Below, piece by piece: positions 62-29,481 of a stretch of 29,481 nt of DNA (position 1 is the stretch's first letter; the number at the start of each line of letters is the position of its first letter). The stretch spans positions 1 through 29,481 of the forward strand of contig JAKQSZ010000003.1 of NCBI GenBank assembly GCA_029569475.1. The letters are read 5' to 3'. Position numbers and translations under genes: made by a program. The notes beneath the pieces are model-generated. The model was not told where the DNA came from, did no database searches, and saw nothing but the letters and a program-made list of their open reading frames with translations. The DNA comes from Candidatus Eiseniibacteriota bacterium. Lineage in GTDB: Bacteria; Eisenbacteria; RBG-16-71-46; CAIMUX01.

Positions 62-141
62 TTGTGGGCTTCACAGCGTGAGACCTCACCTGTATTTCTG
101 GAGGTGACCAAACCAAACCAGAATACAAGGAGGTCCCACAA
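62..141 (+). promoter_or_regulatory. Leader stem-loop covering transposase RBS and start
   Basis: The transposase leader can fold back on its own start region. TTGTGGG (62-68) is complementary to CCCACAA (135-141, reaching the A of the ATG). GACCTC (82-87) is complementary to GAGGTC (130-135). The 89-101 segment pairs imperfectly with 118-130, with one bulge on each side. The Shine-Dalgarno GGAGGT (129-134) is inside the stem. In other IS elements similar structures block translation of transposase from read-through transcripts while allowing it from the element's own shorter transcript. The fold is seen; the regulatory role is inferred. Confidence 0.45.
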
Positions 142-1175
142 TGCGAACTCGGCTCCGCCTGCCCCGATCCAGCCGACGGCGTTTGCAGCGACTCGACCGC
201 AAGACCCGCGATGCCAACCTGCGCGTCCGTTGCCGGGTGATCCTCAAGGTGGACCAAGGGCTCTCGGCTCGGGCGGCCGCCCGGGAGATCGGGTGTGTGC
301 CTTCGACCGCCGCCCGGATCGTAGCGCGTTTCCTCGAGCAGGACGAGGCTTCCCTCTACGATCGTCGGGCCGAGAACGGGCAACGGAAGGTCGACGACGA
401 TGTCCGTCAGGCTCTCCGGGAAATCCTGCTCAGGACCCCGGATGCCTTTGGCTATCAACGAACCAGCTGGTCCCTGGAAGTTCTGGCCCGGGTCCTCGCC
501 GAGACCACCCACATCCAGATCTCCGTCGGTCACCTCTGGAAGGTCCTTCGAGAGCTGAAGGTCCGCTGGGGCTGCGCTCGGCCGATCGTGGCCTGTCCCT
601 GGCCAGCCGCCCGGCGCAGACGGCGCGTGAGAGAGCTCCGCGAGCTGCAGCGCCATCCACCTCGACGAGAGGTCGTACTCTTTTCCGACGAGGTCGATAT
701 CCATCTGAACCCCCGGGTCGGCCGGGACTGGATGCTGAGTGGCCACCAGAGGCTGGTGCTGACACCGGGGAAGAATCAGAAAGCGTTCATCGCGGGTGCC
801 TACGACCCGCGGACCGGTCGGATCGTCTGCGTGGATGGAGACCGCAAGGCCGTCTGGCTCTTCCTCAACCTCCTCCGAGCTCTCCTGCAGGTCTACCGCT
901 CGGCGCGCCGCATCCACGTCATCCTCGACAACTACACGATCCACAAGAGTCGGGCGGTGGTGGCCTTTCTCCGGACCATCGGCGAGAAGATCCTCCTGCA
1001 CTTCCTCCCGCCCTATTGCCCGGAGGAGAACCGTATCGAGCGCCTCTGGAGAGACGTGCATGACAACGTCACTCGGAATCATCGGTGTAAGACCCTCCAG
1101 GACCTCCTGGACCAGGTTTATCTCTATCTGGATTCCAGACTCCTTGTCCGCTGGGGCACCTGCCGGCATGTATGA
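141..1175 (+). CDS. IS630-family DDE transposase
   Basis: A 344-residue transposase that should cut and join the element ends at TA dinucleotides. The N-terminal third is a homeodomain/helix-turn-helix DNA-binding region of the winged-helix IS630 type (RAAAREIGCVPSTAARIVARF, about residues 35-57). The C-terminal half is the RNase H-like catalytic core. The triad is visible as D183 (FSDEVDIHLNP), D263 (HVILDNYTIHKS) and E300 (NRIERLWRDVH), a DD36E spacing that fits the family. ATG 141 is chosen because GGAGGT lies at 129-134. The gene fills the space between the inverted repeats and has no frameshift or stop, so the protein should be functional. Confidence 0.95.
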   Translation: MRTRLRLPRSSRRRLQRLDRKTRDANLRVRCRVILKVDQGLSARAAAREIGCVPSTAARIVARFLEQDEASLYDRRAENGQRKVDDDVRQALREILLRTPDAFGYQRTSWSLEVLARVLAETTHIQISVGHLWKVLRELKVRWGCARPIVACPWPAARRRRRVRELRELQRHPPRREVVLFSDEVDIHLNPRVGRDWMLSGHQRLVLTPGKNQKAFIAGAYDPRTGRIVCVDGDRKAVWLFLNLLRALLQVYRSARRIHVILDNYTIHKSRAVVAFLRTIGEKILLHFLPPYCPEENRIERLWRDVHDNVTRNHRCKTLQDLLDQVYLYLDSRLLVRWGTCRHV

Positions 1176-4396: not shown

Positions 4397-5101
4397 CTAT
4401 CTTCGCGTCGCTCCCGCGGCTTCCACGAGCCGCGCGAGCACCTCGTAGGACTGCGCGCCGACCACCTGCCGGCCACCCGCCTCGTAGGTGGGGACGGCGT
4501 TGATGCCGGCGGCGACGCTGCTGCTCCACTCCCGGTTGATCTGCTCCTTGTACAACCGTTCCTCGAGTACCCGGCGCGCCGTGGCGGCGTCGAGCCCGAT
4601 GGAGGACGCCAGGGCGACCAGCACGTCGGGCTCGGAGATGTTGCGGGCCTTGGCGAAGTAGGCGTGGAAGACGGCACGATGGAACTCCGGGCCTTTGCCC
4701 TGCTCCGTGGCCCAGGCGCCGAGTTCCTGGGCCAGCCGGCTATTATAGGTCATCGTCCGCTCGGTCATGGGGAGCCCCTCGGCCTCGGCGAGTTCCCGCA
4801 ATCGCCGTCTCGACGCTTCCCTTCGAGCGGAGTCGGCGGAGCCGAAGAGGCGGCTCAGTTCGATCCCCTCCGCCGGCGTGTCGGGGTGCAAAGGGAAGTT
4901 GATGTATTCGACGGTGATGTCATACGTGCTCTGGAGCTTCTCAATACGCACGGTACTGAGGTAGCACCAGGGTCACACGTAGTCGCTGTAGACGCGGAGC
5001 AGGACCGGCTCCGCGGCCTGGGCGCCCTGGCCGGCGCCGAGCGCGGCAAGCAGGATGAGGGGCGTCCATGCGATCCGGGCCAGGAACGGGGGAAAAGGCA
5101 T
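4397..5101 (-). CDS. Secreted FrnE/DsbA-family selenoprotein (UPWC active site)
   Basis: A continuous 234-codon frame if the single in-frame TGA at 4973-4975 is decoded as selenocysteine. ATG 5101 has GAGGAG nine bases upstream and opens a signal peptide (LILLAALGAGQGAQAAE). The thioredoxin fold starts RVYSDYV, then TGA, then PWC (U43-P-W-C46), then an FrnE-like body with FPLHPDTPAEGIE and a helical insertion. The cis-proline loop INAVPTYEAGG precedes GAQSYEVLARLV, as in FrnE/DsbA oxidoreductases. The TGA falls on the residue that is the nucleophilic cysteine in relatives, and the frame resumes perfectly for more than 190 codons. It would act in thiol-disulfide or selenide redox chemistry outside the cytoplasm. 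A naive gene call would split it at the TGA. The alternative is a Cys-to-stop mutation; the hairpin after the TGA argues against that. Confidence 0.82.
4931..4970 (-). promoter_or_regulatory. Bacterial SECIS-like hairpin
   Basis: Starting three bases after the UGA, the message folds as follows. CUGG (4970-4967) pairs with CCAG (4934-4931). After a U-U mismatch, GCU (4965-4963) pairs with AGC (4938-4936). After a small internal loop, CUCAGUAC (4960-4953) pairs with GUAUUGAG (4947-4940), with one G-U pair. The apical loop is CGUGC (4952-4948), with G at its second position. The loop starts 20 bases after the UGA, inside the window of about 16-37 bases usual for bacterial SECIS elements that recruit SelB. 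Fifteen base pairs in total within coding sequence make a chance fold unlikely, though no energy was computed. Confidence 0.75.
4973..4975 (-). other. In-frame TGA, predicted selenocysteine codon
   Basis: On the minus strand the codons read TAC GTG TGA CCC TGG TGC, that is Y-V-U-P-W-C. In FrnE and DsbA relatives this position is the N-terminal cysteine of CPWC. Replacement of a redox cysteine by Sec in a UxxC motif is the classic selenoprotein pattern. Confidence 0.8.
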
Positions 5102-5314
5102 CGGGAGTATCTCCTCATGCGGATGAGCGTCCATGTTGACGAAAGGATGGTTTCGGTGGATCTCAGCGGATACAGGTGCTCGGGGACCCGAGTCGCCGTC
5201 TGCTGTCCTTCTGCTCTGCCCGCCATCGTACCCCGCGAAACGGATTGTGTCCCGCTGGCGGAATCCCACCTCCGCGGGCGTTTCCGCTGGCCATCACCCA
5301 CCAGGGCGGGAGAC

Positions 5315-5386: not shown

Positions 5387-6184
5387 ATGAGCTCTTCCGG
5401 AACCAGGGACCGCATCCTCGAGGCGGCGCGGCGCCTCTTCCACGAGCAGGGGTACTCCGCGACCGGGATCTCGACGATCCTCCGGGAGGCTGATGTCAAC
5501 CCCGGCAGCCTCTACCACTTCTATCCCAGCAAGGAAGCGCTGCTGGCGGGGGTCCTGGAGTATTACGTCGAGCTGCTGGAGCCGCGCATCATGGGACCCG
5601 CCCGAGCCACCAGCCGTGACCCGATCGAGCGGATCTTCGGCCTGTTGCGCCTCTACCGGGACGGCCTCGAGGCGAGCGGTTGCCGGATGGGCTGCCCGAT
5701 TGGGAACCTGGCACTGGAAGTCGCCGACTCGCACCCGGAAGTCCGCCCGCTCATCGACCGCAACTTCCGCAACTGGATCGGTCAGGTGGAATCGTGGCTC
5801 GTCGAGGGGAGCGACCGTCTGCCGCCGGGAACCGATTTCCGCCAGGTCGCCGAGTTGGTGTTGACCGTGATGGAAGGCGGCATCATGCAGGCCCGCGCCT
5901 CCGGCGATCTGGGGGCCTTTGATGGCGCCGTGGCGCAGCTGCGGATCTACCTGGATCTGCTTCAGGCGGCCCGGCAAACGCCGAATCAGGCTCGAACACG
6001 AGCGCGAGCGAACAAGAGCACGCGGACAAGCCGCGGGACGAGAGCAGAGAGGATTGCCGGAACGCGTACCGGCGCCAAGAACAAGAACTCAGACAAGGAA
6101 GCAGGACCCACATGCCCACGCCGGATAGCCCCCGTCCCTCCATTCCCAGGACCGGAAACGCCTTCATCGCGCTGGCGCTCATGA
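5387..6184 (+). CDS. TetR/AcrR-family transcriptional regulator
   Basis: A 265-residue regulator. Residues about 6-52 are the TetR DNA-binding domain, with the helix-turn-helix GISTILREADVNPGSLYHF. The ligand domain contains ASGCRMGCPIGNLALEVAD, typical of the LmrA/YxaF branch. ATG 5387 is preferred; a TTG seven codons upstream lies inside the operator. The canonical fold ends near residue 200. The last ~65 residues are a basic Arg/Lys/Thr-rich tail unusual for the family, and the final 73 bases overlap the next gene. The tail may be real or may reflect a lost stop. The cluster position suggests control of the selenoprotein/SDR pair and of the SRPBCC gene. Confidence 0.88.
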   Translation: MSSSGTRDRILEAARRLFHEQGYSATGISTILREADVNPGSLYHFYPSKEALLAGVLEYYVELLEPRIMGPARATSRDPIERIFGLLRLYRDGLEASGCRMGCPIGNLALEVADSHPEVRPLIDRNFRNWIGQVESWLVEGSDRLPPGTDFRQVAELVLTVMEGGIMQARASGDLGAFDGAVAQLRIYLDLLQAARQTPNQARTRARANKSTRTSRGTRAERIAGTRTGAKNKNSDKEAGPTCPRRIAPVPPFPGPETPSSRWRS

Positions 6185-7221
6185 TTCCCGCACTGGCCGG
6201 AGCCACCCCGCCGGCGAGTCAGAACCAGGCAAACGCGATGGCACCACTGGTACACGAAGCCGAGATCCTCGCCTCCGTGCAGGAGGTCTGGAATGTCTTC
6301 AGCACGGCCGAAGGCTTCCGGAAGCTCGGCCCGGCGCTGGCCGAGATGGACTTCCGCCCCGGGGGGACGATCCGCTCCCACTACCATGCCCAGGGGGTTC
6401 TCGGGGACGACGGCACGATTGAGCAGACGATTCTGGCCTTCGAGCCCGAGCGGATGGTGGCGTTCAGGATCAGCAAGCCGCCGCGGGAGTTCCCCTTCCC
6501 CAACGCGTGGAAGAATGTCTGGTCGGTGGCGACCATGGAGGGGCTGGCCGGCGGGAGCACGCGGCTGCGCCTGGCGATGATGGGATACGCAGCGGACGAA
6601 GAGAGCCAGCGGATGCGCGCCTTCTTCGATCAGGGCAACGCCTGGGTGCTGGAGCACCTGAAGAAGAGCTTCCAGCCCACAGGACAGGTGTCGCCGCGTC
6701 CCTCTCCGGTCTCCGAGGGCCCGCCGGCCGTCGGGAGCGACGATCCACTCGCGCCGATCACGGTCGTGACGAGGATCCACGCGCCGGCTTCCGAGGTCTG
6801 GAACTGCTGGGCGAGTTCGGAGGGAATCAAGTCCTTCCTCTCCGAAGGGGCGAACGTGCAACTCGCGGTGGGGGGTCCCTTCGAGATCTACTTCGACATG
6901 TCGGCGCCCGAGGGGAGCCGCGGTTCGGAGGGATGTCGGGTCCTCGCCTACGATCCGAGCCGGATGTTGAGCTTCTCCTGGAACGCCCCGCCGAAGTTTC
7001 CCTACGCCCGGGACAAGCACACCTGGGTGGTCCTGCACGTGGAGCCGGCCGGAGCCCATTCCGCCCGGGTGGAGTTGCGCCACCTCGGCTTCGCCGAGAA
7101 CAATGCTGCGGAACCAGGGCACACCGAGGAGTGGGTCGGAGTAAGGACCTACTTCCAGGCGGCCTGGCCGCAGGTGATCGCCGCGCTGGAGCGCCATCTC
7201 ACGACTCCAGCCGCGCCTTGA
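6112..7221 (+). CDS. Exported tandem SRPBCC (AHSA1/START-like) protein
   Basis: A 369-residue protein. A signal peptide (AFIALALMIPALAGATPP) is followed by two SRPBCC-type ligand-binding folds. The first (about 45-185) begins HEAEILASVQEVWNVFSTAE and the second (about 220-365) begins VVTRIHAPASEVWNCWASSE. Both show the AHSA1 pattern of a helix-grip opening, central GGTI/GGPF strand and C-terminal long helix (YFQAAWPQVIAALERHL). SRPBCC domains bind hydrophobic ligands; two in one exported chain is less usual. ATG 6112 follows AAGGAAGCAGGA and overlaps the end of the TetR frame, so translation may be coupled. Ligand unknown. Confidence 0.78.
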   Translation: MPTPDSPRPSIPRTGNAFIALALMIPALAGATPPASQNQANAMAPLVHEAEILASVQEVWNVFSTAEGFRKLGPALAEMDFRPGGTIRSHYHAQGVLGDDGTIEQTILAFEPERMVAFRISKPPREFPFPNAWKNVWSVATMEGLAGGSTRLRLAMMGYAADEESQRMRAFFDQGNAWVLEHLKKSFQPTGQVSPRPSPVSEGPPAVGSDDPLAPITVVTRIHAPASEVWNCWASSEGIKSFLSEGANVQLAVGGPFEIYFDMSAPEGSRGSEGCRVLAYDPSRMLSFSWNAPPKFPYARDKHTWVVLHVEPAGAHSARVELRHLGFAENNAAEPGHTEEWVGVRTYFQAAWPQVIAALERHLTTPAAP

Positions 7222-12200: not shown

Positions 12201-14129
12201 ATGTTGAGCCGATCGAAGCAGCGGTATCTCGAGATCCGGCTCGTGCGAGGCAGCATCACCGAGGTCGATGCCGGGGCCTATGTGCTGGGCGTCTTCCAGG
12301 GAGTGGATCCGGTCGGCCCCGCCGAGACAGTGGACCGGCTCATGGGCGGGGCCATTCGCGAGTTCGCCTTGCGTCGCATGTTTTCCGCGCGCGCCGGGGA
12401 GGTCTTTGTCGTTCCCGCCGGACGTCACCTGATCCATGCCGACATGGTGCTGCTCTCCGGACTGGGTTCGGTGGACGAGTTCGACGACGAGGTCCAGCGG
12501 CTGGCGGCCGAGAACGTGGCGCGAACGTTGATCCGGACCTGCGTGGACAACTTCGCCACGGTTCTTGTCGGCGCCGGCTCAACCCTGGAGCCGGCGCGGG
12601 CGGTGGAAAACCTGCTGCGGGGCTATCTCCACGCGTTACGCGAGGCCGATGGCGACCAGGTGGTGCGAAGGATCACCTTCTGCGAGATCGATGCTCCGAG
12701 GTATGCCGCCATGCGAGCGGAAGTGTTGCGCCTGGCGGACACGGAGCTCTTCCAGGAGTACCAGGTTTTCTGGGACGAGCGCCGGTTCCCTCCGGGCCGC
12801 ACGCCGGCTGCGGGGTCGCGGAAGTCGAGGAGCCGGTCTCGTGCGGGGACAGGACCGGCCACCGATGTCCGTCCCCCGGTGATGTACCTGGTTGTCCGCG
12901 AGGAGGCCACGGAGACCCGCGGCGTCGCCCTCGCGGCCGGAGCATCTGCCGGCGGCTCCACAGCGGCCCGAGCGTCCGCCGCTGGTCCCGCAGCGGGCCA
13001 AGCATCCGCGGACGCTCCCGCCGCGGCTCGAGCATCCGCGGGTGCTCCCGCCGCTGCGGGGTCGTCCGCCAGGGCGGCAGCGGCAACGGGACGATCCTCG
13101 ACGGACGGCGATACGCAGTGGAGTGTCGCCGTGCTCACGCCGTCGGGGCGGGCCGCGCTTCTCAGCGGACGAATCCGCTTCCAGCGCAGCGTCCTGGACC
13201 GCCTGCTGGCCCGACTCGACTCGTCCTCCTTGAGCATGAAGTCCGTGGAGAGCCTGGGCGACGAACTGGGACGGCTGCTGCTTCCGGCCAACGTCCTGGA
13301 GATGTTGCCCCGTTCCAAGGATGCCCACCTGGTCGTCGTGCACGACGCGCCTTGCGCCCGGATTCCGTGGGAGGTCCTACGGATCGACGGCTGGTTCCCC
13401 GCGGCCGAGGCCGGAACGACCCGGCGCTATGCGGCCGATGACCTCTCCATGGCGAAGTGGGCCGAGACCCGGCGCCAGGCCCCCGGCATTCGGATCCTCC
13501 TCATCGTCAACCCAACGGGAGACCTGCCGGGGGCGTCGGAGGAGGGACGCCACCTCGAGAAGGCGTTTTCGGGCAACAAGTCGATCGTGCTCGAGAAGCT
13601 GACCGGAAGCGAAGCGACCTTCGCCGCGGTGCGCGAGGTCTTCCACTCCGGCCGTTACGACGTCGTCCACTATGCCGGCCATGCCCTCTTCAACCCGGAC
13701 CAGCCTTCGGAGAGCGGCGTCCTCTGCGCGGACAACCGCGTCCTGCGGGGAGCGGACCTCGCCGACCTCTCCAATCTTCCCGCGCTGGTCTTCTTCAACG
13801 CCTGTGAGTCCGGAAGGGTCAGGCGGGCCGGGCGGGCCGGTGCGGCGGCCAACTCCGACAGGATCCGCGCGCTCATCGATGCCAACGTGGGGCTGGCCGA
13901 GGCGTTCATGCGCGGCGGGGTGGCCAACTACCTCGGCACCTACTGGCCGGTCGGCGATGCGTCGGCCACCAGCTTCGCCGAGACCTTCTATGCCTCCCTG
14001 CTGAAGAAGGAAGGCATCGGAACGGCCCTGCAGGCAGCCCGGCGGGTCTTGCGCGAGGAGCTGCGGTCGATGGACTGGGCGGACTACATGTTCTACGGGA
14101 CGCCCGACTTCCCGCTCAAGCTCGGCTGA
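12201..14129 (+). CDS. CHAT caspase-like protease with M17-N macro domain
   Basis: A 642-residue cytoplasmic-type protein; no signal peptide. Residues about 15-180 match the N-terminal macro-like domain of M17 leucyl aminopeptidases (GAYVLGVFQGVDPVG, HADMVLLSGLGSVDEF), but the M17 catalytic domain is absent. Residues 248-297 are an Ala-rich decapeptide-repeat linker. The C-terminal ~330 residues are a CHAT protease: PWEVLRIDGWF, then H494 in VVHYAGHALFN and C535 in FFNACESGR, the Cys-His dyad of caspase-like peptidases, ending YMFYGTPDFPL. CHAT proteases cleave specific partners in defence, death or signalling systems. ATG 12201 follows GGAGGA. Only six bases separate it from a glycosyltransferase gene, implying an operon. 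The function is inferred from domains. Confidence 0.85.
   Translation: MLSRSKQRYLEIRLVRGSITEVDAGAYVLGVFQGVDPVGPAETVDRLMGGAIREFALRRMFSARAGEVFVVPAGRHLIHADMVLLSGLGSVDEFDDEVQRLAAENVARTLIRTCVDNFATVLVGAGSTLEPARAVENLLRGYLHALREADGDQVVRRITFCEIDAPRYAAMRAEVLRLADTELFQEYQVFWDERRFPPGRTPAAGSRKSRSRSRAGTGPATDVRPPVMYLVVREEATETRGVALAAGASAGGSTAARASAAGPAAGQASADAPAAARASAGAPAAAGSSARAAAATGRSSTDGDTQWSVAVLTPSGRAALLSGRIRFQRSVLDRLLARLDSSSLSMKSVESLGDELGRLLLPANVLEMLPRSKDAHLVVVHDAPCARIPWEVLRIDGWFPAAEAGTTRRYAADDLSMAKWAETRRQAPGIRILLIVNPTGDLPGASEEGRHLEKAFSGNKSIVLEKLTGSEATFAAVREVFHSGRYDVVHYAGHALFNPDQPSESGVLCADNRVLRGADLADLSNLPALVFFNACESGRVRRAGRAGAAANSDRIRALIDANVGLAEAFMRGGVANYLGTYWPVGDASATSFAETFYASLLKKEGIGTALQAARRVLREELRSMDWADYMFYGTPDFPLKLG
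12942..13091 (+). repeat. In-frame 30-bp minisatellite in CHAT gene
   Basis: Five imperfect 30-base units, each exactly ten codons, encoding variants of ASAGAPAAAR. They form the linker between the macro and CHAT domains. Copy number is likely to vary between strains, changing linker length without shifting frame. Confidence 0.85.
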
Positions 14130-21330: not shown

Positions 21331-21596
21331 CGGATCGCGCTCCTTGCGTCAAGACATTGCAGGCCGTACTGCGAAACCCAACTGCGAAAACCTACTCCAG
21401 TGGTCGGCCTCGCGCCAGGGCTTCGTGAGTACCCGCCGCCTGGCGCGCAGGCTTCGTGAGCTTCTGGCCCCGGACCCGCGCTGAGTTCGCCGCCGTTGTC
21501 CTTCGCGTTCCGGTATGATCGGGGGTCACCTTCCTCAGGGAGTTGGTCTTGTTGATTCGGATCCAATCGACGCGAGTTGCCGCAAAGGACTGGTTC
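21331..21596. other. Divergent intergenic region with short repeats
   Basis: Holds two copies of ACTGCGAAA (21368 and 21381) followed by ACC or AACC. It also holds two copies of CAGGCTTCGTGAG-like sequence (about 21413 and 21452). The first motif also occurs at 19238 in the minisatellite gap. The region separates the ACP gene from the TPR-CHAT gene, so both promoters should lie here. Confidence 0.5.
21514..21519 (+). promoter_or_regulatory. Candidate -10 box for the TPR-CHAT gene
   Basis: TATGAT matches five of six bases of the sigma-70 -10 consensus, 78 bases before the chosen ATG. TTGTCC upstream is only 12 bases away, too close for a normal -35, so this is a weak call. Confidence 0.3.
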
Positions 21597-24500
21597 ATGC
21601 CGCGGGTCGCCCTCACGCTGACAGTGTTTGCCCTGTTTCTGACCGCCCTGGTCGGGACGGCCGGAAGCGCGGCCGCAACCGGTCCGTCGCCGGGCCGAGA
21701 GCCGTCGGATCCCGACACCCTTCTGCTGCAGGAAATGCGGACGGCGGGGAAGGAGCGGCGCTGGGCAGACGCGGAAAGCCTCGCTGTTGCGATCGGGGCG
21801 AAGTGGAGACCCACCGCGTCATCCGCCGACTCCTTGATCCTCGCCGAGATGCTCGAGACCCGGGCCCGGGCGCGCCTGGAACAGGGGCGCTGGCGGGAAC
21901 CCGGCACGATGGACCTCGCCGGCCTGGCCCTGGCGCTCCGCCGCCGCCACTCCTCCCGCGAGGATCTCGGCGTGGCGGGGGCGGCGCACACGCTCGGGCG
22001 GTTGTTGCGGCGCGCCGGCCATTACGAAGAGGCTCGCGAACACCTCCGCATGACGGTGCGGATCCTGGAGGCGGAGCTCGGCACCAATCATCCGGAAACC
22101 GCCAAGGCCTGGGGCAATCTCGGGGTTGTCCTGAACGACCTGGGAGACGTCGAGGCGGGCCTGGATGCGTATCATCGCACCCTCGCCATCTTTGAGCGTC
22201 TGCAGGGTCCGGAGGGGGAAGAGGTCGCGGGAGGGTTGTACAACATCGCGCTGGCGCTCGAGGCTCAGGGCGAACCTGCCGCCGCGCTGCCGTACGCTGA
22301 GCGGCTGCTGGCCGTGCGCCAAAAACGCCACGGCGCCGACGGGATCCTGACCGCGGAGGCGCTGCACCTCATGGCGATGCTTCTCTATGCCATGGGCGAC
22401 TACGAGGAAGCCGAGCCGCTCAGCCGGCGCGCGCTCCGCATCCGGGAGGATTCGCTCAGCGCGGACGCGACCTCGCTGGGTCATAGCGTGACGATGCTCG
22501 CGAACATTCTGCGGGCGCGCGGCGATCGGGCGGGGGCGCGTCCGCTCTACGAGCGCGCGCTGGCCATCGACGAGGCGGCCGTGGGCCGCGATCATCCGCG
22601 GGTCCTGGTCTCGTTGATCAACCTCGGGGCGTTGCGCTTGATCGACGGGGACCTGCGGGCAGCCGACGAGATTTTTCGCCGCGGCCTGGCGATCGCGGAG
22701 AAGTCCCTGGGAGCGCTTCATCCGCGCGTGGCGATGGTTCTCTCGCAACTCGGCACGGTGGCACGGGAGTCCGGCCGGGTCGAGGAGGCGATGGGCTTCT
22801 ACCGGCGCGCGCTCGCGATACGCGAAGAAACCCTGGGACCCGACCATCCGGACGTCGCCGGGACGCTCTACTCCATGGCCCTGCTGCTGGAACGGATGGA
22901 TCGCCGCACCGAGGCGATCGCCTCCGCGCTGCGGGCCGAGGAAATCGGGCGCCGGCATCTCCGGCTGACGATGCAGGGTCTGCCGGAGCGGCAGGCCATG
23001 CGCTATTCCGACGTGCGCGTCAAAGGGCTGGACCTCGCGTTGGAGATCCTGGCGCGGGAGGAAAGCCTGACGGAGGCCTACGGCCCACGAGAGGAACTGG
23101 CGCGCCGTGTGTGGGACTCTGTCATTCTCTCCCGCGCCGTGGTGCTGGACGAACTGGCGCGCCGGCAGGCGCTGCTGGAGTCGCGCGAGCCGGCCACCCA
23201 GCGGGCCCGGCAACGTCTGGCCGAAGCGAGCCGCTCCCTGGCTCACTTCATGGTCAAGGGATCGGGCGGCGCCGCGCCCGAGCGGCTGCAGGCCGCGCGT
23301 TCGGAGAGGGAGCAGGCGGAGAAGGAGCTGGCCGCCTTGACATCAGGGCGGGTGGATCCGAGTTTCGTGCGCGACCCGGATCTTGCCGCGATCCATGCCG
23401 CTCTCCCGGAGGAGGCCGCCCTTGTCGCGTTTGTCCGGTACGAGACCGGCGGTTCCGGGCAGGAGCGCGGCGAAGAGGCGGCGGGGCTCAAGGCGGAGAA
23501 GGCGGTCAGGTTGGACGCCGAGGAGGCGGCCGGGTCGGACGCTGAGGAGGCGGCCACTGCCTATCTCGCCTTCGTCCTCTCTCCCCGCCACGAATCCAAC
23601 CCGACGAAACGTTCGCACAACCGTTCGGCGGGCCCGCCGGAGGATCAGCCGAACGTCGCGGTGGTGTCTCTTGGGGACGGCCGGGAGATCGACGAACTCG
23701 TGCGAGGTTGGCGGGAAACCGTGGGCCGCCTTCCGCCGGCGGATCCAGCCGCGGCCGCCCGCGCGGAGGCGTCGGCGCGCGAGGCCGGCTCCGCCCTGCG
23801 CGCCGCGGTGTGGGCGCCGATCGTCCCGCTCGTGGGTGAAGCGCGGAGGATCCTCATCGTTCCCGATGGGGCGCTCTGCCTCGTGCCCTTCGGCGCCTTG
23901 CCCGAGGCCGCCGGCGGGTACCTGGCTGAATCCGACGTGGTCCTGCACCTTCTCACGACCGAGCGGGATCTGCTGGCGCCGCCGGCCGCGGATCAGGGCG
24001 AGGGTTTGCTGGCCCTCGGGGGGCCGGACTTCGACGTCAGGTCTGCAAGATTCGAAGCCCGGGGAGGAAGAGCCGCGACTGGAGGCGCGGTCGGCGCTCC
24101 GGCCGGGCTGGCCGCTTCGCCTTTGTACCGGGGGCAGGCGGATCCGTTCAATTCACGGCCGAACTGCCCGGAGTTCGCAACCGTCCGCTTCTCCGCCCTT
24201 CCGTTTTCGGAAGAAGAGGCCCGGGCGGTGGCCCGCGTCTGGAAAGGGCATTCGCCTGGGCCCGCCTCGGTGCTGGCCGGCGGCGCCGCTTCCGAAGCAA
24301 GGTTCAAGCGGGAGGCGGAGGGCCGGCTCTGCCTGCACCTGGCCACACACGGCTTCTTCATCGGCGAGGACTGTGCAGTGGAAGGCGTACGGCCCGCCCC
24401 CGATGCCGGTGAAGAACCGCGCCATGCGGTGGGTGGTGCGTCACCCCAGGTGGCGGGCGAGTCGTCCACGGATCACGCCGGGGCGCGCGGCATCGGCGGG

Positions 24501-25046
24501 CTGCGTCCCGCGCGTTCTAGCGTTCTTCCGCCCGACCAGCGCCCGAATGCTCCACCTGCCGAGCAGTCGAGCGCCGCTTCCGCCCGCCGCACGAGCGCCG
24601 AACCGCGGGAGAACCCTCTGCATCTGAGCGGCCTCGCGCTGGCCGGCGCCAACCATCGCCAGGAGATCGATGGGACGGGCGAGGACGGCATCCTGACCGC
24701 GGAGGAGATCGCGGCCATGGACTTGAAGGGTGTCCAGTGGGCCGTGCTCTCGGCCTGCGACACCGGACTCGGCTCGTTCATTCCGGGCGAAGGGGTGCTC
24801 GGATTGCGGCGCGCCTTCCAGGTCGCCGGCGTGCGCAGCGTGATCATGAGCATGTGGGCCATCCACGACGAGTCGGCTCGCACTTGGATGGAACACTTCT
24901 ACCGGGGGCGCTGGAACCAAGGGCGTGACACGGCGGAGGCCGCCTGGGAGGCCTCCCGCGCCCTGCTGCGAGCCCGGCGCGCACGCGGGGAGAGCGACCA
25001 TCCGTTCTACTGGGCCGGGTTCACGGCGGCCGGCGACTGGAGATAG
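21597..25046 (+). CDS. Exported TPR-CHAT caspase-like protease
   Basis: A 1149-residue protein. ATG 21597 follows AAAGGA and opens a signal peptide (VFALFLTALVGTAGSAAA); a TTG at 21543 is less likely. Residues about 126-455 hold eight 42-residue kinesin-light-chain-type TPRs (for example GDYEEAEPLSRRALRIRE, TLGPDHPDVAGTLYSMALLL). A helical segment follows, then the CHAT protease with H918 in LHLATHGFF and C1054 in LSACDTGLG, and the usual ending HPFYWAGFTAAGDW. Between His and Cys is a long Pro/Ser/Ala-rich insertion, and a charged repeat lies near residue 626. TPRs normally bind the partner that is cleaved or sensed. Export makes an extracytoplasmic role likely. It is convergent with the giant beta-helix gene. 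Confidence 0.9.
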   Translation: MPRVALTLTVFALFLTALVGTAGSAAATGPSPGREPSDPDTLLLQEMRTAGKERRWADAESLAVAIGAKWRPTASSADSLILAEMLETRARARLEQGRWREPGTMDLAGLALALRRRHSSREDLGVAGAAHTLGRLLRRAGHYEEAREHLRMTVRILEAELGTNHPETAKAWGNLGVVLNDLGDVEAGLDAYHRTLAIFERLQGPEGEEVAGGLYNIALALEAQGEPAAALPYAERLLAVRQKRHGADGILTAEALHLMAMLLYAMGDYEEAEPLSRRALRIREDSLSADATSLGHSVTMLANILRARGDRAGARPLYERALAIDEAAVGRDHPRVLVSLINLGALRLIDGDLRAADEIFRRGLAIAEKSLGALHPRVAMVLSQLGTVARESGRVEEAMGFYRRALAIREETLGPDHPDVAGTLYSMALLLERMDRRTEAIASALRAEEIGRRHLRLTMQGLPERQAMRYSDVRVKGLDLALEILAREESLTEAYGPREELARRVWDSVILSRAVVLDELARRQALLESREPATQRARQRLAEASRSLAHFMVKGSGGAAPERLQAARSEREQAEKELAALTSGRVDPSFVRDPDLAAIHAALPEEAALVAFVRYETGGSGQERGEEAAGLKAEKAVRLDAEEAAGSDAEEAATAYLAFVLSPRHESNPTKRSHNRSAGPPEDQPNVAVVSLGDGREIDELVRGWRETVGRLPPADPAAAARAEASAREAGSALRAAVWAPIVPLVGEARRILIVPDGALCLVPFGALPEAAGGYLAESDVVLHLLTTERDLLAPPAADQGEGLLALGGPDFDVRSARFEARGGRAATGGAVGAPAGLAASPLYRGQADPFNSRPNCPEFATVRFSALPFSEEEARAVARVWKGHSPGPASVLAGGAASEARFKREAEGRLCLHLATHGFFIGEDCAVEGVRPAPDAGEEPRHAVGGASPQVAGESSTDHAGARGIGGLRPARSSVLPPDQRPNAPPAEQSSAASARRTSAEPRENPLHLSGLALAGANHRQEIDGTGEDGILTAEEIAAMDLKGVQWAVLSACDTGLGSFIPGEGVLGLRRAFQVAGVRSVIMSMWAIHDESARTWMEHFYRGRWNQGRDTAEAAWEASRALLRARRARGESDHPFYWAGFTAAGDWR
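23472..23555 (+). repeat. In-frame 24-bp minisatellite in TPR-CHAT gene
   Basis: Three and a half units of 24 bases (8 codons) at 23472, 23496, 23520 and 23544, encoding EEAAGLKA, EKAVRLDA, EEAAGSDA and EEAA. They lie just inside the protease half, in a stretch predicted to be disordered or helical. Confidence 0.8.
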
Positions 25047-25088: not shown

Positions 25089-28000
25089 CTACCGGAGCAT
25101 CATCCACCGGGTTGTACACGTTCCCGAGGGAGTCGACACCCGCGCCCAGTATGTGCCGGCCGGCAGCTCCGACGGCGCTTCCAGGGTTCTTTCGTGCCGC
25201 CCCGCGCGCAGCCCCGGCCAGTCCTCGCGCAAGATCTCGCGGCCGGCGAGGTTGAACAGGCGGACGCTCACGTCCCCTCCCCGCGGCAGCGCCAGCGCCA
25301 CGCGTGGCGTGCCGCCGGGATTCGGAAGTATCTTCAGGGAAAGCTCCCGGATCGCGGGAAGACCGGCCGTGACCGGTCCCCACCATTGCCAGGTTCCCGA
25401 AGGATCTGTCTGGCGTACCGCATATACATGGAGCGTTCCCGGCTCGGTCTCGGCATCCAGCCAGGTCACGAACCCGTCGGTGGCGCGCAGATCCGGCGAG
25501 ATGGCCATCCACCCCGGAGCCTCGGCCTCTACCGGCAGCGCGGTCTCGTCCGGCGGCGCGTTCCCGTCGCCCCCAGAGTCCCGCCGGTAGACCCGGAAGA
25601 GGGACGAGGGTCCGGCCGGGCTGGTCCAGGAGATCTCGATTCCGCCAGGTCCCGGCGTCGCCAGCAGTGACGGCAGCGCGGGAAGGGCCGGATTCTGGAA
25701 ATGCCAGCCACCGCCCTCCGACCATCGACTCAATCCGGAGCCGTCCACCGCGCGCACCCTCCAGGTGTACCAGACCGACGGCAAGACATCGTCTTCACCC
25801 AGGGTAGCCATGGTGTCGGAGCCGACCGCGAGCGATTCGCTCTCGGAGAACAAAGGATCAGGGGACCAGTGGAAGATGTAGTCGACCGTGTCGCCGGGAT
25901 CGAACGCGCGGCGCCAGCGGAAGGTTGTCACCGGCCCCACGAGAGCGCTGTCGGGCGGTGAGACGAGGGCGAAGGGTTGCGGCGGCGCGATCCACTCCGA
26001 GTAGTTGATCCGCGGAAGGGCATGATCATCCCACCAGTCGTGGATGCGGCTGAGGTTCTTCGGATTCGCGCTTCCCAGGATCTCCTGGGTCGTGATCTCG
26101 CCCCAGTCGTTCGAGCGCAGGTTGACGCTGAACGTGCCGGCTTTCCCGCAGCGGACATCCGCTTCGGCCCCGTTGCCGTGGATGGAGCACTCGCGCACGA
26201 TCAGGTGGTGGGGCTCGATGGCGCCGCTCAGGAGGATGCCCCAGCCGAGATTGTCCGTGATGGCGCAGCCGCTCAGGTGGCCGGCGGCGCGCTCCCCGAG
26301 ATCGACCCCTGCCGGCCGGTTGCCGGAGATGACCGTGTGCCGTACCGAAAGGAGATCGCCGAGGCGGACCTGCGCGATCTGCAGCCCGGCCACACCCTCG
26401 GCCGTGGAGCCGTTACCGACGATCTCGCAGGATTCGATCAGAACCACCGGATCACCCGAGTCCCAGCTCGTCCCCTCGTGGGAAAGGGCAGACGAGATGT
26501 CCGTCACGGTCACGCCGCGGCGGGAGCATTGGGCAATCGCGCTGTGCGTGAGGCTGAACGGAGCGGTCCCGTAGACGAGGCAGCCGTCGCGGGCCCGCTC
26601 GATCCGAACATGGGAGAGGGAGGAGCCGGCATCCCCGCGCGGGTCGAAGACGAGCCCATCCCAGGGCGTCTCCTCGCCGCTGTCGCGATGCGGCGCGAAG
26701 AGGATCGGCTCTTCGGCGGTCCCGGTCGCGGACAACGAGCCGCGCACGGTGAGGCCGCATTCCGGATGGAAGCGAACCTCCGTGCCGGCCTCGATGACCA
26801 GGGACGCGCCCGTCAGCACAAGGAGATCGCCCGTGACCACGTACGGCCCCTCCTCCCGCGACCACGTGCCCGACACGGGACCTGCGACGCCGCCCAGCGG
26901 CGCCTCGTCCTCGACCGTACGCTGGTTGCCGTAGTCATCCAGGGGATCCAGGTACGACACGTTGATCCGATCGCCCGATCGTACCGTCAGAGCCACGTCG
27001 TCGTTTCGACCGGAACGGTACCTTCCTCCCGGAGGCGGACCGTCCGCTTGCTCCAGATGGTCGAGCGGCAACGTCGCCCGGTACGACCCCGGTTGGTCCG
27101 GCACCACCTCGAAGACCAGCGGCGTCCCCGAGGAATCGCTGTCGCTGCGGGCCTCGCCCGTGGGCGCCGAACCGCCGTCGGGCTCGAACACCATCACGCG
27201 CAGGGTGTCCGACTCCTCCGGCAGCCGGGTCTGGATGGGATTCCAGTTCTCGTCGGCCAGGACGATCTCGGCCGTGTAGCCGAAGGGCCCCACGCCCCCG
27301 ATCCACCGGCCGTAGTTGATCTCCGGCAACGCCGGTTCGTCAAACCGGTCGCGCACTCGCGTCAGGTTGCGGGGATTAGGGCCGGCGTTCATCTCACCCG
27401 TGCTCTGCGCTCCCCAGTCGTTCTCGCGCAGATCCAGGATGAACGCGGGGACGCCGTCATCGCAGTAGACGTCGTGGTCCCGGGCGTTGTCCTCGATGAG
27501 GCAGGACCGGAAGGTCAACTCCGAGGGGATGGCCATCTCGTCGACAAAGATTCCCCAGCCGTGATTGCCGGTGATCACACAATCGACGATCCTGCCCCCG
27601 GCGGTGAACTCGAGGTCGACTCCCGTCTCGTAGTTCCCTTCGATCCGGCAGCCGCGGACCTGCAGGTTGTTTCCCGTCCAGACCGAACTGATGCCGAGGC
27701 CGCCGGCGTCCGGGTCGTTCCAGCCGCACTCCTCGATCACGCAGTTCTCGATCGTGACCGGCCGGCTGGCCTGGTAGACCAGAACGCCATAGCCCCCGCA
27801 GTCGCGGATCGAGCAATGCGAGAGGGTCGTCGTCGAAGAGCCGGAGATGACGCAGCCGATGGCGGCCTGTTCTATGGCGCAGTGCGAGAGGGTGGAGGCC
27901 GGTTGGTTCGGGCACTCCGACATCGGGTCGAAGAGGATGCCGTCCCAAAGCGGCTCGAGCGGATCCACGGTATCGCGTACGTGGCGCAAGAGGATGGGGT

Positions 28001-29481
28001 GCTCTTGATCCCCCGGCGCGCTCAGCCGTCCCAGGACCTCCAGCCGGCACTCCGGGAGGAAGCGGATCTCCGCGCCGGGCTCAATCGTGAGGGTGGCGCC
28101 GCAATCCACGGTGACGTCCCCGGTCACGAGGTGAGGGCTGCCGTCGAGCGTCCATGTGCCGGAGACGCTTCCGGAGATGCCGCCGAAGGCGGCCTCATCG
28201 CGGACAAGCTCGGGCTGGCCATACTCGTTGAGCCCGTCCTGATAGGTGACCTCGATGATGTCCCCCGAGGCCACGTCCAGGATGCCGTCGCCGGGCCCCG
28301 ATCGCCGCGACCCACGCAACGCCGGGACAGCCCGGATAACGCCTCGATCCCGTAGATGACGGTGGGCGAGGAGGCGCGCCTCGATGGCCAGCGACTCGGC
28401 GCTCCGTCCGGGGCGCTCTGCCTGCAGCCGCGCCAGGACGGAACCGGTCTCCGCCTGGAGCTCCTCGGCGGTATAGGACTGAAGCGACAGCAGAGAGACC
28501 GCGATGGCGCCGCGAAAGTGTCCGGGCGCTCCGGCAACCGCGGAAAGGACCACGATTTCACCGCCGGTCTCGTGTCCGCTCGTGACGGTGACCGTGGCCG
28601 ATCCCGACAGGTCGGGCTCGTGGAGCAGCACGCGGATCGAGTCGGTGTCGGCCGGGTAGCCGCCCGGCAGGTCCTGCCATTGAGGATCGGCTAGCGTCAC
28701 CGTGGCGGAGTTGCCGAAGGGGCCGGCGCCGCCGATCCAGTTCCCGTAGTTCACCATCGGGATTCCGATGGCGTCGAAACCGTCGCGAATCCGGGAGATG
28801 TTCTTGGGGTTGCCACCCGTGTTCATCTCCGCCGTGACCGCCGGTCCCCAGTCGTTGCCGCGCAGATCGACCTCGAAGACGCCGATGCCGGAGTCGCAGT
28901 AGACGTCGTGAGAGCCGGTGTTGCCGTGGATGGCGCTGTCGCGGATGGAGAAACCGCCTGGAAGGACGGCGTCATCGACGAAGATCCCCCAGCCGTGATT
29001 GCTGACGAACTCGCAGTCGCGGATCGTGGCGGCGGCCCCGGACTCGAGATCGAGGCCTGTCTGGAAGTTGCGGGTCACGACCGTGTTCTCGACCCACAGA
29101 TCGCCGGCGCTGCCCAGCCGCGCGATCTGCAAGCCGCCTCCGTCTTCCTGGGCCGCGGCGTTCTCCTCGATCACGCACGAGGAGATGGTCAGCCCGAAGT
29201 CCGTCTCGTCCTGGCCGCCCGCGGCCACGCCCAGTCTCCAGCAGCGGCGGATCCGGCTGTGCTCCAGCCGGCTCCCGAGACCTCCGCGGAAGAGGCAACC
29301 CTCTTCCGCCCGCTCGATGAGGCAGTAGGAGAGCAGAGAGGCACGTGCCTCGGCGGGGTCGAAGGTCAGGCCTGGCCAGAGCGCCCCCGCCATCCCAGGG
29401 GCGATGACCGGCCCGAAGGCGATCGTGTCCTGCTCGGCGCCGATTGCTCGCAAGACACCGCGCACGACCAGCGCGCATCCC
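25089..29481 (-). CDS. Giant right-handed beta-helix surface protein, 5' end missing
   Basis: At least 1463 residues; the frame is open to the window edge with no start needed there, and the edge sequence (GCALVVRGVLRAIGA) is mid-module, so the true start is off the right end. Three related modules each contain beta-helix coils (CVIEENAA, HGWGIFVD, SCLIEDNA) and a closing NDWG...NPKNLSRI...NYG.WIGG segment. Two fibronectin-III-like domains follow (VTTFRWRRAFDPGDTVDYIF; GGIEISWTSPAGPSSLFRVY). The C-terminal ~85 residues (LKILPNPGGTPRVALALPRG ... LPAGTYWARVSTP) are a FlgD-like / type-A sorting domain used for outer-membrane export and anchoring in FCB-type bacteria. It is likely an adhesin or polysaccharide-binding or -lyase protein; no catalytic signature was recognised. 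Confidence 0.85.
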   Translation of the reverse strand, partial: GCALVVRGVLRAIGAEQDTIAFGPVIAPGMAGALWPGLTFDPAEARASLLSYCLIERAEEGCLFRGGLGSRLEHSRIRRCWRLGVAAGGQDETDFGLTISSCVIEENAAAQEDGGGLQIARLGSAGDLWVENTVVTRNFQTGLDLESGAAATIRDCEFVSNHGWGIFVDDAVLPGGFSIRDSAIHGNTGSHDVYCDSGIGVFEVDLRGNDWGPAVTAEMNTGGNPKNISRIRDGFDAIGIPMVNYGNWIGGAGPFGNSATVTLADPQWQDLPGGYPADTDSIRVLLHEPDLSGSATVTVTSGHETGGEIVVLSAVAGAPGHFRGAIAVSLLSLQSYTAEELQAETGSVLARLQAERPGRSAESLAIEARLLAHRHLRDRGVIRAVPALRGSRRSGPGDGILDVASGDIIEVTYQDGLNEYGQPELVRDEAAFGGISGSVSGTWTLDGSPHLVTGDVTVDCGATLTIEPGAEIRFLPECRLEVLGRLSAPGDQEHPILLRHVRDTVDPLEPLWDGILFDPMSECPNQPASTLSHCAIEQAAIGCVISGSSTTTLSHCSIRDCGGYGVLVYQASRPVTIENCVIEECGWNDPDAGGLGISSVWTGNNLQVRGCRIEGNYETGVDLEFTAGGRIVDCVITGNHGWGIFVDEMAIPSELTFRSCLIEDNARDHDVYCDDGVPAFILDLRENDWGAQSTGEMNAGPNPRNLTRVRDRFDEPALPEINYGRWIGGVGPFGYTAEIVLADENWNPIQTRLPEESDTLRVMVFEPDGGSAPTGEARSDSDSSGTPLVFEVVPDQPGSYRATLPLDHLEQADGPPPGGRYRSGRNDDVALTVRSGDRINVSYLDPLDDYGNQRTVEDEAPLGGVAGPVSGTWSREEGPYVVTGDLLVLTGASLVIEAGTEVRFHPECGLTVRGSLSATGTAEEPILFAPHRDSGEETPWDGLVFDPRGDAGSSLSHVRIERARDGCLVYGTAPFSLTHSAIAQCSRRGVTVTDISSALSHEGTSWDSGDPVVLIESCEIVGNGSTAEGVAGLQIAQVRLGDLLSVRHTVISGNRPAGVDLGERAAGHLSGCAITDNLGWGILLSGAIEPHHLIVRECSIHGNGAEADVRCGKAGTFSVNLRSNDWGEITTQEILGSANPKNLSRIHDWWDDHALPRINYSEWIAPPQPFALVSPPDSALVGPVTTFRWRRAFDPGDTVDYIFHWSPDPLFSESESLAVGSDTMATLGEDDVLPSVWYTWRVRAVDGSGLSRWSEGGGWHFQNPALPALPSLLATPGPGGIEISWTSPAGPSSLFRVYRRDSGGDGNAPPDETALPVEAEAPGWMAISPDLRATDGFVTWLDAETEPGTLHVYAVRQTDPSGTWQWWGPVTAGLPAIRELSLKILPNPGGTPRVALALPRGGDVSVRLFNLAGREILREDWPGLRAGRHERTLEAPSELPAGTYWARVSTPSGTCTTRWMMLR
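25985..26876 (-). repeat. Beta-helix module 3 (lacks Ig-like tail)
   Basis: Starts VSGTWSREEGPYVVTGDLLV and keeps the beta-helix and the NDWG...INYSEWI segment. It then passes directly into fibronectin-like domains instead of the Ig-like half seen in modules 1 and 2. Confidence 0.75.
26877..28166 (-). repeat. Beta-helix module 2 (complete)
   Basis: Runs from VSGTW (Val codon at 28166-28164) to just before the next VSGTW (26876-26874), a period of exactly 1290 bases or 430 codons. It has the signature pieces VTGDVTVDCGATLTIEPGA, HGWGIFVDEMAIP and NYGRWIGGVGPFGY. Confidence 0.8.
28167..29481 (-). repeat. Beta-helix module 1 (partial)
   Basis: The first visible copy of the ~430-residue module. 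Between the NYG.WIGG segment and the next module it carries a unique alpha-helical insertion (about 28300-28510; SYTAEELQAETGSVLARLQA) missing from the other copies. Confidence 0.75.

Follow-up and report, generated by a model that had tools for sequence, protein, structure and literature searches.

A gene split at TGA that very probably encodes one exported DsbA/FrnE-type redox enzyme with an active-site selenocysteine

DsbA-like selenoproteins and FrnE

Selenocysteine (Sec)-containing DsbA-like proteins with a UxxC motif were predicted in the Sargasso Sea survey of 2005 (nine sequences, COG2761; PMC1088965). The GOS survey counted them as DsbA 1 (63), DsbA 2 (18) and DsbA 3 (UxxV; 5) (PMC2398784), two reviews include them (PMC9312934, PMC13188914), and two sequences have been described from Asgard archaea (PMC11227280). 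They are already a known predicted kind, as the first-pass annotation of the locus described here had noted. As far as the available parts of these sources go, form 1 carries the PF01323 domain, a UxxC motif with Sec first and a SECIS element just downstream (PMC1088965, PMC2398784, PMC9312934, PMC13188914); the protein reported here shares PF01323 and UxxC. It differs in belonging to a branch with signal peptides, whereas the same parts of the survey and review literature make no mention of export, periplasm or signal peptide (“secreted” in PMC2398784 refers to proteases). The representatives AACY01178397 and NIP15863.1 were compared by description only. By titles and the beginnings of abstracts, literature searches found nothing on an exported form of the DsbA-like selenoprotein and nothing on bacterial FrnE selenoproteins; a search combining Eisenbacteria and selenocysteine also found nothing. 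Exported members may sit unnoticed in the earlier counts.

The best matches in sequence and fold are FrnE (Deinococcus radiodurans DR_0659, PDB 5cnw and others) and SCO1869 (PDB 3gl5), with which the protein has the xPWC motif in common. According to the part of PMC8945050 available, FrnE is cytoplasmic, carries CPWC and in many members, but not all, a C-terminal CXXXXC; the D. radiodurans protein is a cytoplasmic disulfide reductase with disulfide isomerase and insulin-reducing activity. The protein described here instead has Sec in place of the first Cys, a signal peptide, C46 as its sole Cys and no C-terminal CXXXXC. With a DsbA/FrnE fold and xPWC at the start of the first helix it is FrnE-type in fold, but we do not file it as FrnE because its signal peptide contradicts the cytoplasmic location. 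The Rcas_1661 family of thioredoxin-like (seleno)lipoproteins (NF041057), named DsbG-like in the part of PMC13188914 available, also comprises UxxC thioredoxin-fold selenoproteins. It was the sole NCBIfam match and a weak one (52.2 bits against a cut-off of 190, covering residues 121-228 only), and we rejected membership.

One reading frame across the TGA and its predicted product

The window, a 29,481-nucleotide stretch of a Candidatus Eiseniibacteriota contig, contains the gene on its minus strand (Table 1). The first-pass annotation had the coordinates right and gave no strand; the plus strand of the same interval gives an unrelated reading. As it had claimed, a single frame runs through one internal stop, the TGA at residue 43 (codons TAC GTG TGA CCC TGG TGC), into a complete thioredoxin-fold body. 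The translation begins MPFPPFLARIAWTPLILLAALGAGQGAQAAEPVLLRVYSDYVUPWCYLST, taking in a hydrophobic N-terminal segment and YSDYV-U-PWC, and continues through a complete DsbA/FrnE domain containing NAVPTY to its end at ATRR. The ribosome-binding site and signal peptide that had been proposed are both recognizable. The protein body matches PF01323 (E 7.5e-36) and, among solved structures, D. radiodurans FrnE (E 9.5e-22). GC content at codon positions 1-3 is 0.76/0.50/0.90 5' of the TGA and 0.65/0.50/0.86 3' of it, which is of coding type on both sides and resembles three other window genes that were checked. Residue 43 and C46 are the only U or C residues of the protein; thus, C46 has no possible redox partner within the protein other than residue 43. 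Plain ORF calling returns the truncated product that the first-pass annotation had foreseen, and this fragment is also the database entry. Annotation software splits the gene in two at the TGA, yet its product is very probably a single exported redox enzyme with an active-site Sec.

Table 1. Features of the DsbA/FrnE-type selenoprotein gene (window coordinates)
Feature	Coordinates	Strand	Remarks
DsbA/FrnE-type selenoprotein (predicted), whole gene	4397..5101	-	234 residues, TAG stop; translated with TGA as one residue
Likely ribosome-binding site GAGGAG	5111..5116	-	9 nt 5' of the ATG at 5101; read in the sequence
Putative signal peptide, about residues 1-30, AQA-type cleavage site	5012..5101	-	by eye and from the hydrophobic segment
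TGA codon 43, probably read as Sec, first residue of UPWC	4973..4975	-	
TGC codon of Cys46, presumptive resolving partner in UPWC, sole Cys of the protein	4964..4966	-	
SECIS-like hairpin core, 8-bp stem CUCAGUAC/GUAUUGAG, loop CGUGC	4940..4960	-	starts 12 nt 3' of the TGA
Start-less gene-caller fragment, 184 aa, GTG start	4397..4951	-	plain ORF calling; P0003 in the protein database

An AlphaFold2 model (mean pLDDT 86.7, pTM 0.79; residues 1-15 below 50) found FrnE and SCO1869 as its best PDB matches and places residue 43 directly before the first helix (44-59). V203-P204-T205 is invariant in 30 aligned sequences, at a position that we take to be the cis-Pro loop site of DsbA-type proteins. 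We consider it highly probable that the gene encodes a selenoprotein in which the hairpin that closely follows UGA codon 43 directs SelB and tRNA-Sec to read this codon as Sec, and which is exported via its signal peptide. The mature DsbA/FrnE-type fold would then present U43 and C46 at the start of the first helix, beside the VPT (cis-Pro) loop. Its extracytoplasmic selenol would exchange with protein disulfides, giving a U43-C46 selenenylsulfide that a partner would reset.

Candidate partners were sought in 47 genomes of the phylum (Eisenbacteria) to which one carrier of the exported form, G001, belongs. As a pointer to function the counts, taken from genomes of unreported completeness, are no more than suggestive: DsbB was found in 0/47 (six control genomes were positive), VKOR in 8/47, including G001 but not the gene carriers G042 or G045, and a DsbD membrane domain in 40/47, including G001 and G045 but not G042. 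Since DsbD-type membrane domains are widespread in the phylum and the search for DsbB found none, we favor, with moderate confidence, an extracytoplasmic reductase/isomerase or repair role.

The same selenoprotein could instead be a DsbA-type disulfide-forming oxidase that is recharged by a VKOR-type membrane protein, as its DsbA-type fold and the VKOR homologue in G001 would allow. We regard this as a possible but less probable role. The scarcity of VKOR and its apparent absence from G042 and G045 argue against it, as does the failure to detect DsbB, and Se-S bonds are more reducing than disulfides. A further point against an oxidase is that D. radiodurans FrnE is, according to the part of PMC8945050 available, a reductase and isomerase. 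A branch of exported proteins of this kind raises the question of why Sec would be used in an extracytoplasmic thiol-disulfide enzyme of bacteria in which DsbB is not detected.

The TGA codon, the hairpin and the Sec machinery in relatives

A scan of genome contigs gave at least 80 loci, with the strict motif readable in 78; the window's closest kin were not among the matches listed and came instead from the phylum of G001, which includes the Eisenbacteria genome G042. Among the 78 readable loci the codon equivalent to codon 43 was TGA in 69, from several phyla, TGC in 7, TGT in 2, and TAA or TAG in none. A looser motif added one TGA (L068) and one TGC (L047). Thus, as the first-pass annotation had suggested checking, the in-frame UGA falls where homologues have Cys, and protein sequence is conserved on both sides of it, including the downstream frame.

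The protein database gave 2685 matches among 7999 candidates scored. Within the best 120, 87 have Cys at the Sec position, 28 (including the window's own entry) begin after the motif, and the remaining five have Arg in two cases, Gly in two and Trp in one. The 28 entries that lack the active site amount to a systematic annotation gap among these best 120 relatives. P0021, “DsbA family protein [Candidatus Eisenbacteria bacterium]”, is the post-TGA part of locus L085 and is the one fragment of the other 27 whose DNA was seen; the start points of the remaining 26 suggest a TGA in each. The five full-length relatives with Arg, Gly or Trp (P0028, P0029, P0055, P0087 and P0031) have codons one base from TGA, or a TGA read as Trp by a gene caller, and may be escapes of TGA genes, sequencing errors or real losses.

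Membership in the bacterial SECIS class was judged by a G in a small apical loop, as given in the part of PMC1088965 available; the loop CGUGC has such a G. An Rfam scan of the window gave no match at gathering thresholds. The 54 nt from the last TGA base fold with a z of -2.99, and 3/200 shuffles were as good. For comparison we assembled 73 TGA and 10 Cys genes (83 in all, including the window gene, L085 and L087; L086 was left out since it repeats L001). In these statistics the rows are related by descent and the stem is defined on the window gene. Eight stem pairs form in 23 of the TGA genes, seven in 46 and six in 4, and the outermost pair is C-A in 46/73; the Cys genes form 3 to 6.

As a synonymous null, eight codons were redrawn in 200 rounds, with codon frequencies taken from the gene bodies of the full set of 83. 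The TGA genes average 7.26 pairs against 3.85 under this null (highest of 200 rounds, 4.22), and the Cys genes 4.1 against 4.47. One result counts against this contrast, in that the Cys genes fold slightly better than the null (-5.8 versus -4.7 kcal/mol, sd 0.6). For the window gene alone, 4/20000 synonymous versions reach eight pairs, and for L085, 360/20000. Codon choice under the stem is strongly skewed. At the sixth codon after the TGA all 68 Ser codons are AGT (55) or AGC (13), and AGT makes up 31/474 of Ser codons in the gene bodies; at the ninth, Arg is CGT in 72/73, and CGT makes up 62/833 of Arg codons there.

In all 55 genes with Ser AGT the residue four codons downstream is Ile, and in all 13 with Ser AGC it is Val, with no instance of the reverse; a silent Ser change thus accompanies an amino-acid change. 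When the residues over the hairpin were left out of tree building, at least seven switches of this pair were needed, six of them forced by well-supported branches. Pairing holds in 90.7% of cells, against 20.6-48.3% when the partners are slid by 1-3 nt. Shuffling the 3' letters gave a mean of 88.0% (maximum of 500, 89.0%), a weak contrast because most columns hardly vary. What carries weight for the hairpin is therefore the 21-31 pair together with three comparisons, namely the synonymous null, the slid control and the Cys genes. As far as sequence comparison can tell, codon choice and paired changes maintain the hairpin in TGA genes, and Cys genes do not have it, which makes the selenocysteine reading very likely even without an experiment. 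The first-pass annotation had named, as grounds for abandoning that reading, Cys relatives without the hairpin together with a decaying downstream frame; the Cys relatives do lack it, but the TGA relatives keep it and the downstream frame is conserved. Its other ground was a genome lacking Sec machinery; most genomes of relatives have it. One Cys (TGT) gene, L021 (at 1003), has a recognizable but decayed hairpin with 6/8 pairs, possibly reflecting a recent Sec-to-Cys change; in its genome selA was not found and there is no clear tRNA-Sec.

These comparisons bear on two alternatives. If a Cys codon had become TGA by mutation or miscall, the gene would be dead or misread. Such an origin would fit the presence of only the downstream fragment in the protein database and the prevalence of Cys at this position in the best 120 relatives. 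We consider it very improbable, given the recurrence of TGA in 69 of 78 readable relatives across several phyla, the retention of the hairpin, and the protein conservation and coding-type composition on both sides of the codon. Alternatively, the TGA could end a 42-residue exported peptide, with a second protein restarting at the GTG at 4951, within the hairpin; gene callers do choose this in-frame GTG as their start. The protein is conserved over its full length, yet a restarted product would have neither its signal peptide nor its first strand nor its active-site motif. The N-terminal part is also kept in relatives, since a start (ATG, GTG or TTG) lies 10-24 codons ahead of the TGA/Cys position in all 79 genes outside the exported set, and two separate products are likewise very unlikely.

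Returning to selenocysteine, we searched for its machinery in 40 genomes holding listed loci from the scan, 32 with TGA loci and 8 with Cys loci. selA was found in 28/32 TGA and 2/8 Cys genomes, and selB above its curated cut-off in 27/32 and 2/8. tRNA-Sec of at least 60 bits was found in 23/32 and 2/8, a line drawn post hoc in the gap that separates these from weaker matches of at most 53 bits; Rfam's own cut-off passes 30/40. Two Cys genomes, G036 and G037, have all three components. For G010 the search gave fragments of selA and selB, none reaching the cut-offs, and in G005 and G016 a TGA gene is present while selA and selB were not found.

Within the phylum of G001, selA exceeds its cut-off in 40/47, selB in 37/47 and tRNA-Sec in 39/47 genomes. 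At E 1e-20 the protein has a match in three of the 47, and each match contains one internal TGA. All three machinery components are present in G001; in G045 selB and tRNA-Sec are present and selA was not found, and in G042, which holds a close exported-type relative, none of the three was found, gaps that perhaps come from incomplete assemblies. G041 and G043, which hold the window's nearest DnaJ relatives in this phylum (67 and 68%), have all three components and no match to the protein at E 1e-20. Named database relatives of that DnaJ include Candidatus Krumholzibacteriia (67%), Eisenbacteria (65%) and Latescibacterota (63%), so the window probably belongs in or near Eisenbacteria. A tRNA search of the window itself found none. 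Together, TGA conservation, the hairpin and the machinery of relatives lend the Sec reading, as first proposed, what we judge to be strong support. That the source organism reads TGA as one of the standard amino acids, for instance Trp or Gly, as the five Arg, Gly or Trp proteins might hint, is hardly credible given that TGA ends 14 of the 18 window genes, that the 17 window genes besides this one have no internal stop, that most full-length relatives listed have Cys rather than Trp or Gly, and that relatives possess Sec machinery.

An apparently undescribed exported branch and its surroundings

Four of the 83 genes, the window gene, L001, L085 and L087, are counted as exported. Of the 83, only the window gene is without an ATG, GTG or TTG 10-24 codons 5' of the site, which leaves the long N-terminus as its only option; the hydrophobic N-termini of L001, L085 and L087 resemble signal peptides, but these genes have possible inner starts too. 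The starts of the other 79 genes we take, from their position, to be those of cytoplasmic proteins. In a midpoint-rooted tree of 102 rows with the active site masked, one branch (support 100/99) unites the window gene, L001, L085 and L087 with 10 of the 11 database fragments included and with P0010, which has a signal peptide and CPWC; the eleventh fragment, P0122, falls among betaproteobacterial genes. Cytosolic Cys forms need seven changes on this tree, four of them forced by well-supported branches. Sec and Cys have therefore been exchanged repeatedly, in a direction that is uncertain under the midpoint root. Two further loci, L007 and L009, come from bins titled Klebsiella pneumoniae and Bordetella parapertussis; in the tree their DsbA forms a tight group with the DsbA of the betaproteobacterial bins L008 and L002, and by this sequence grouping their public names look wrong.

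This exported branch of DsbA/FrnE-type selenoproteins is apparently undescribed so far. We lean, by a small balance of probability, towards the view that it gives Eisenbacteria and neighboring lineages without detected DsbB an extracytoplasmic selenol, so that part of their thiol-disulfide traffic beyond the cytoplasm would run on selenium while databases record start-less fragments. The first-pass annotation had doubted whether an exported FrnE-type protein beside a TetR/SDR/SRPBCC cluster had been described. The available parts of the literature on DsbA-like selenoproteins bear out the first half, with no mention of an exported form, and the neighborhood looks incidental. A conserved operon with TetR, SDR or SRPBCC was rejected after tblastn of nine neighboring window genes against the relatives' loci, which gave only seven SDR matches at six loci (28-34% identity). 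Around the three exported-type relatives the nine genes had no tblastn match, two of these loci being only about 6.5 kb long.

Other genes of the window were recorded in passing. A plus-strand gene at 6112-7221 carries two SRPBCC (AHSA1/polyketide cyclase) domains behind an apparent signal peptide, and it begins, in a different frame, before the TetR gene has ended. A complete IS630 family transposase, above its curated cut-off, lies at 141-1175 (plus), and a CHAT-domain protein with a Peptidase_M17_N match at 12201-14129 (plus). By eye, the long ORF at 21543-25046 (plus), with TPR-like repeats, has a CHAT-like C-terminus, and the protein of at least 1463 aa at 25089-29480 (minus), which has internal repeats, ends in a region resembling a FlgD-like sorting domain.
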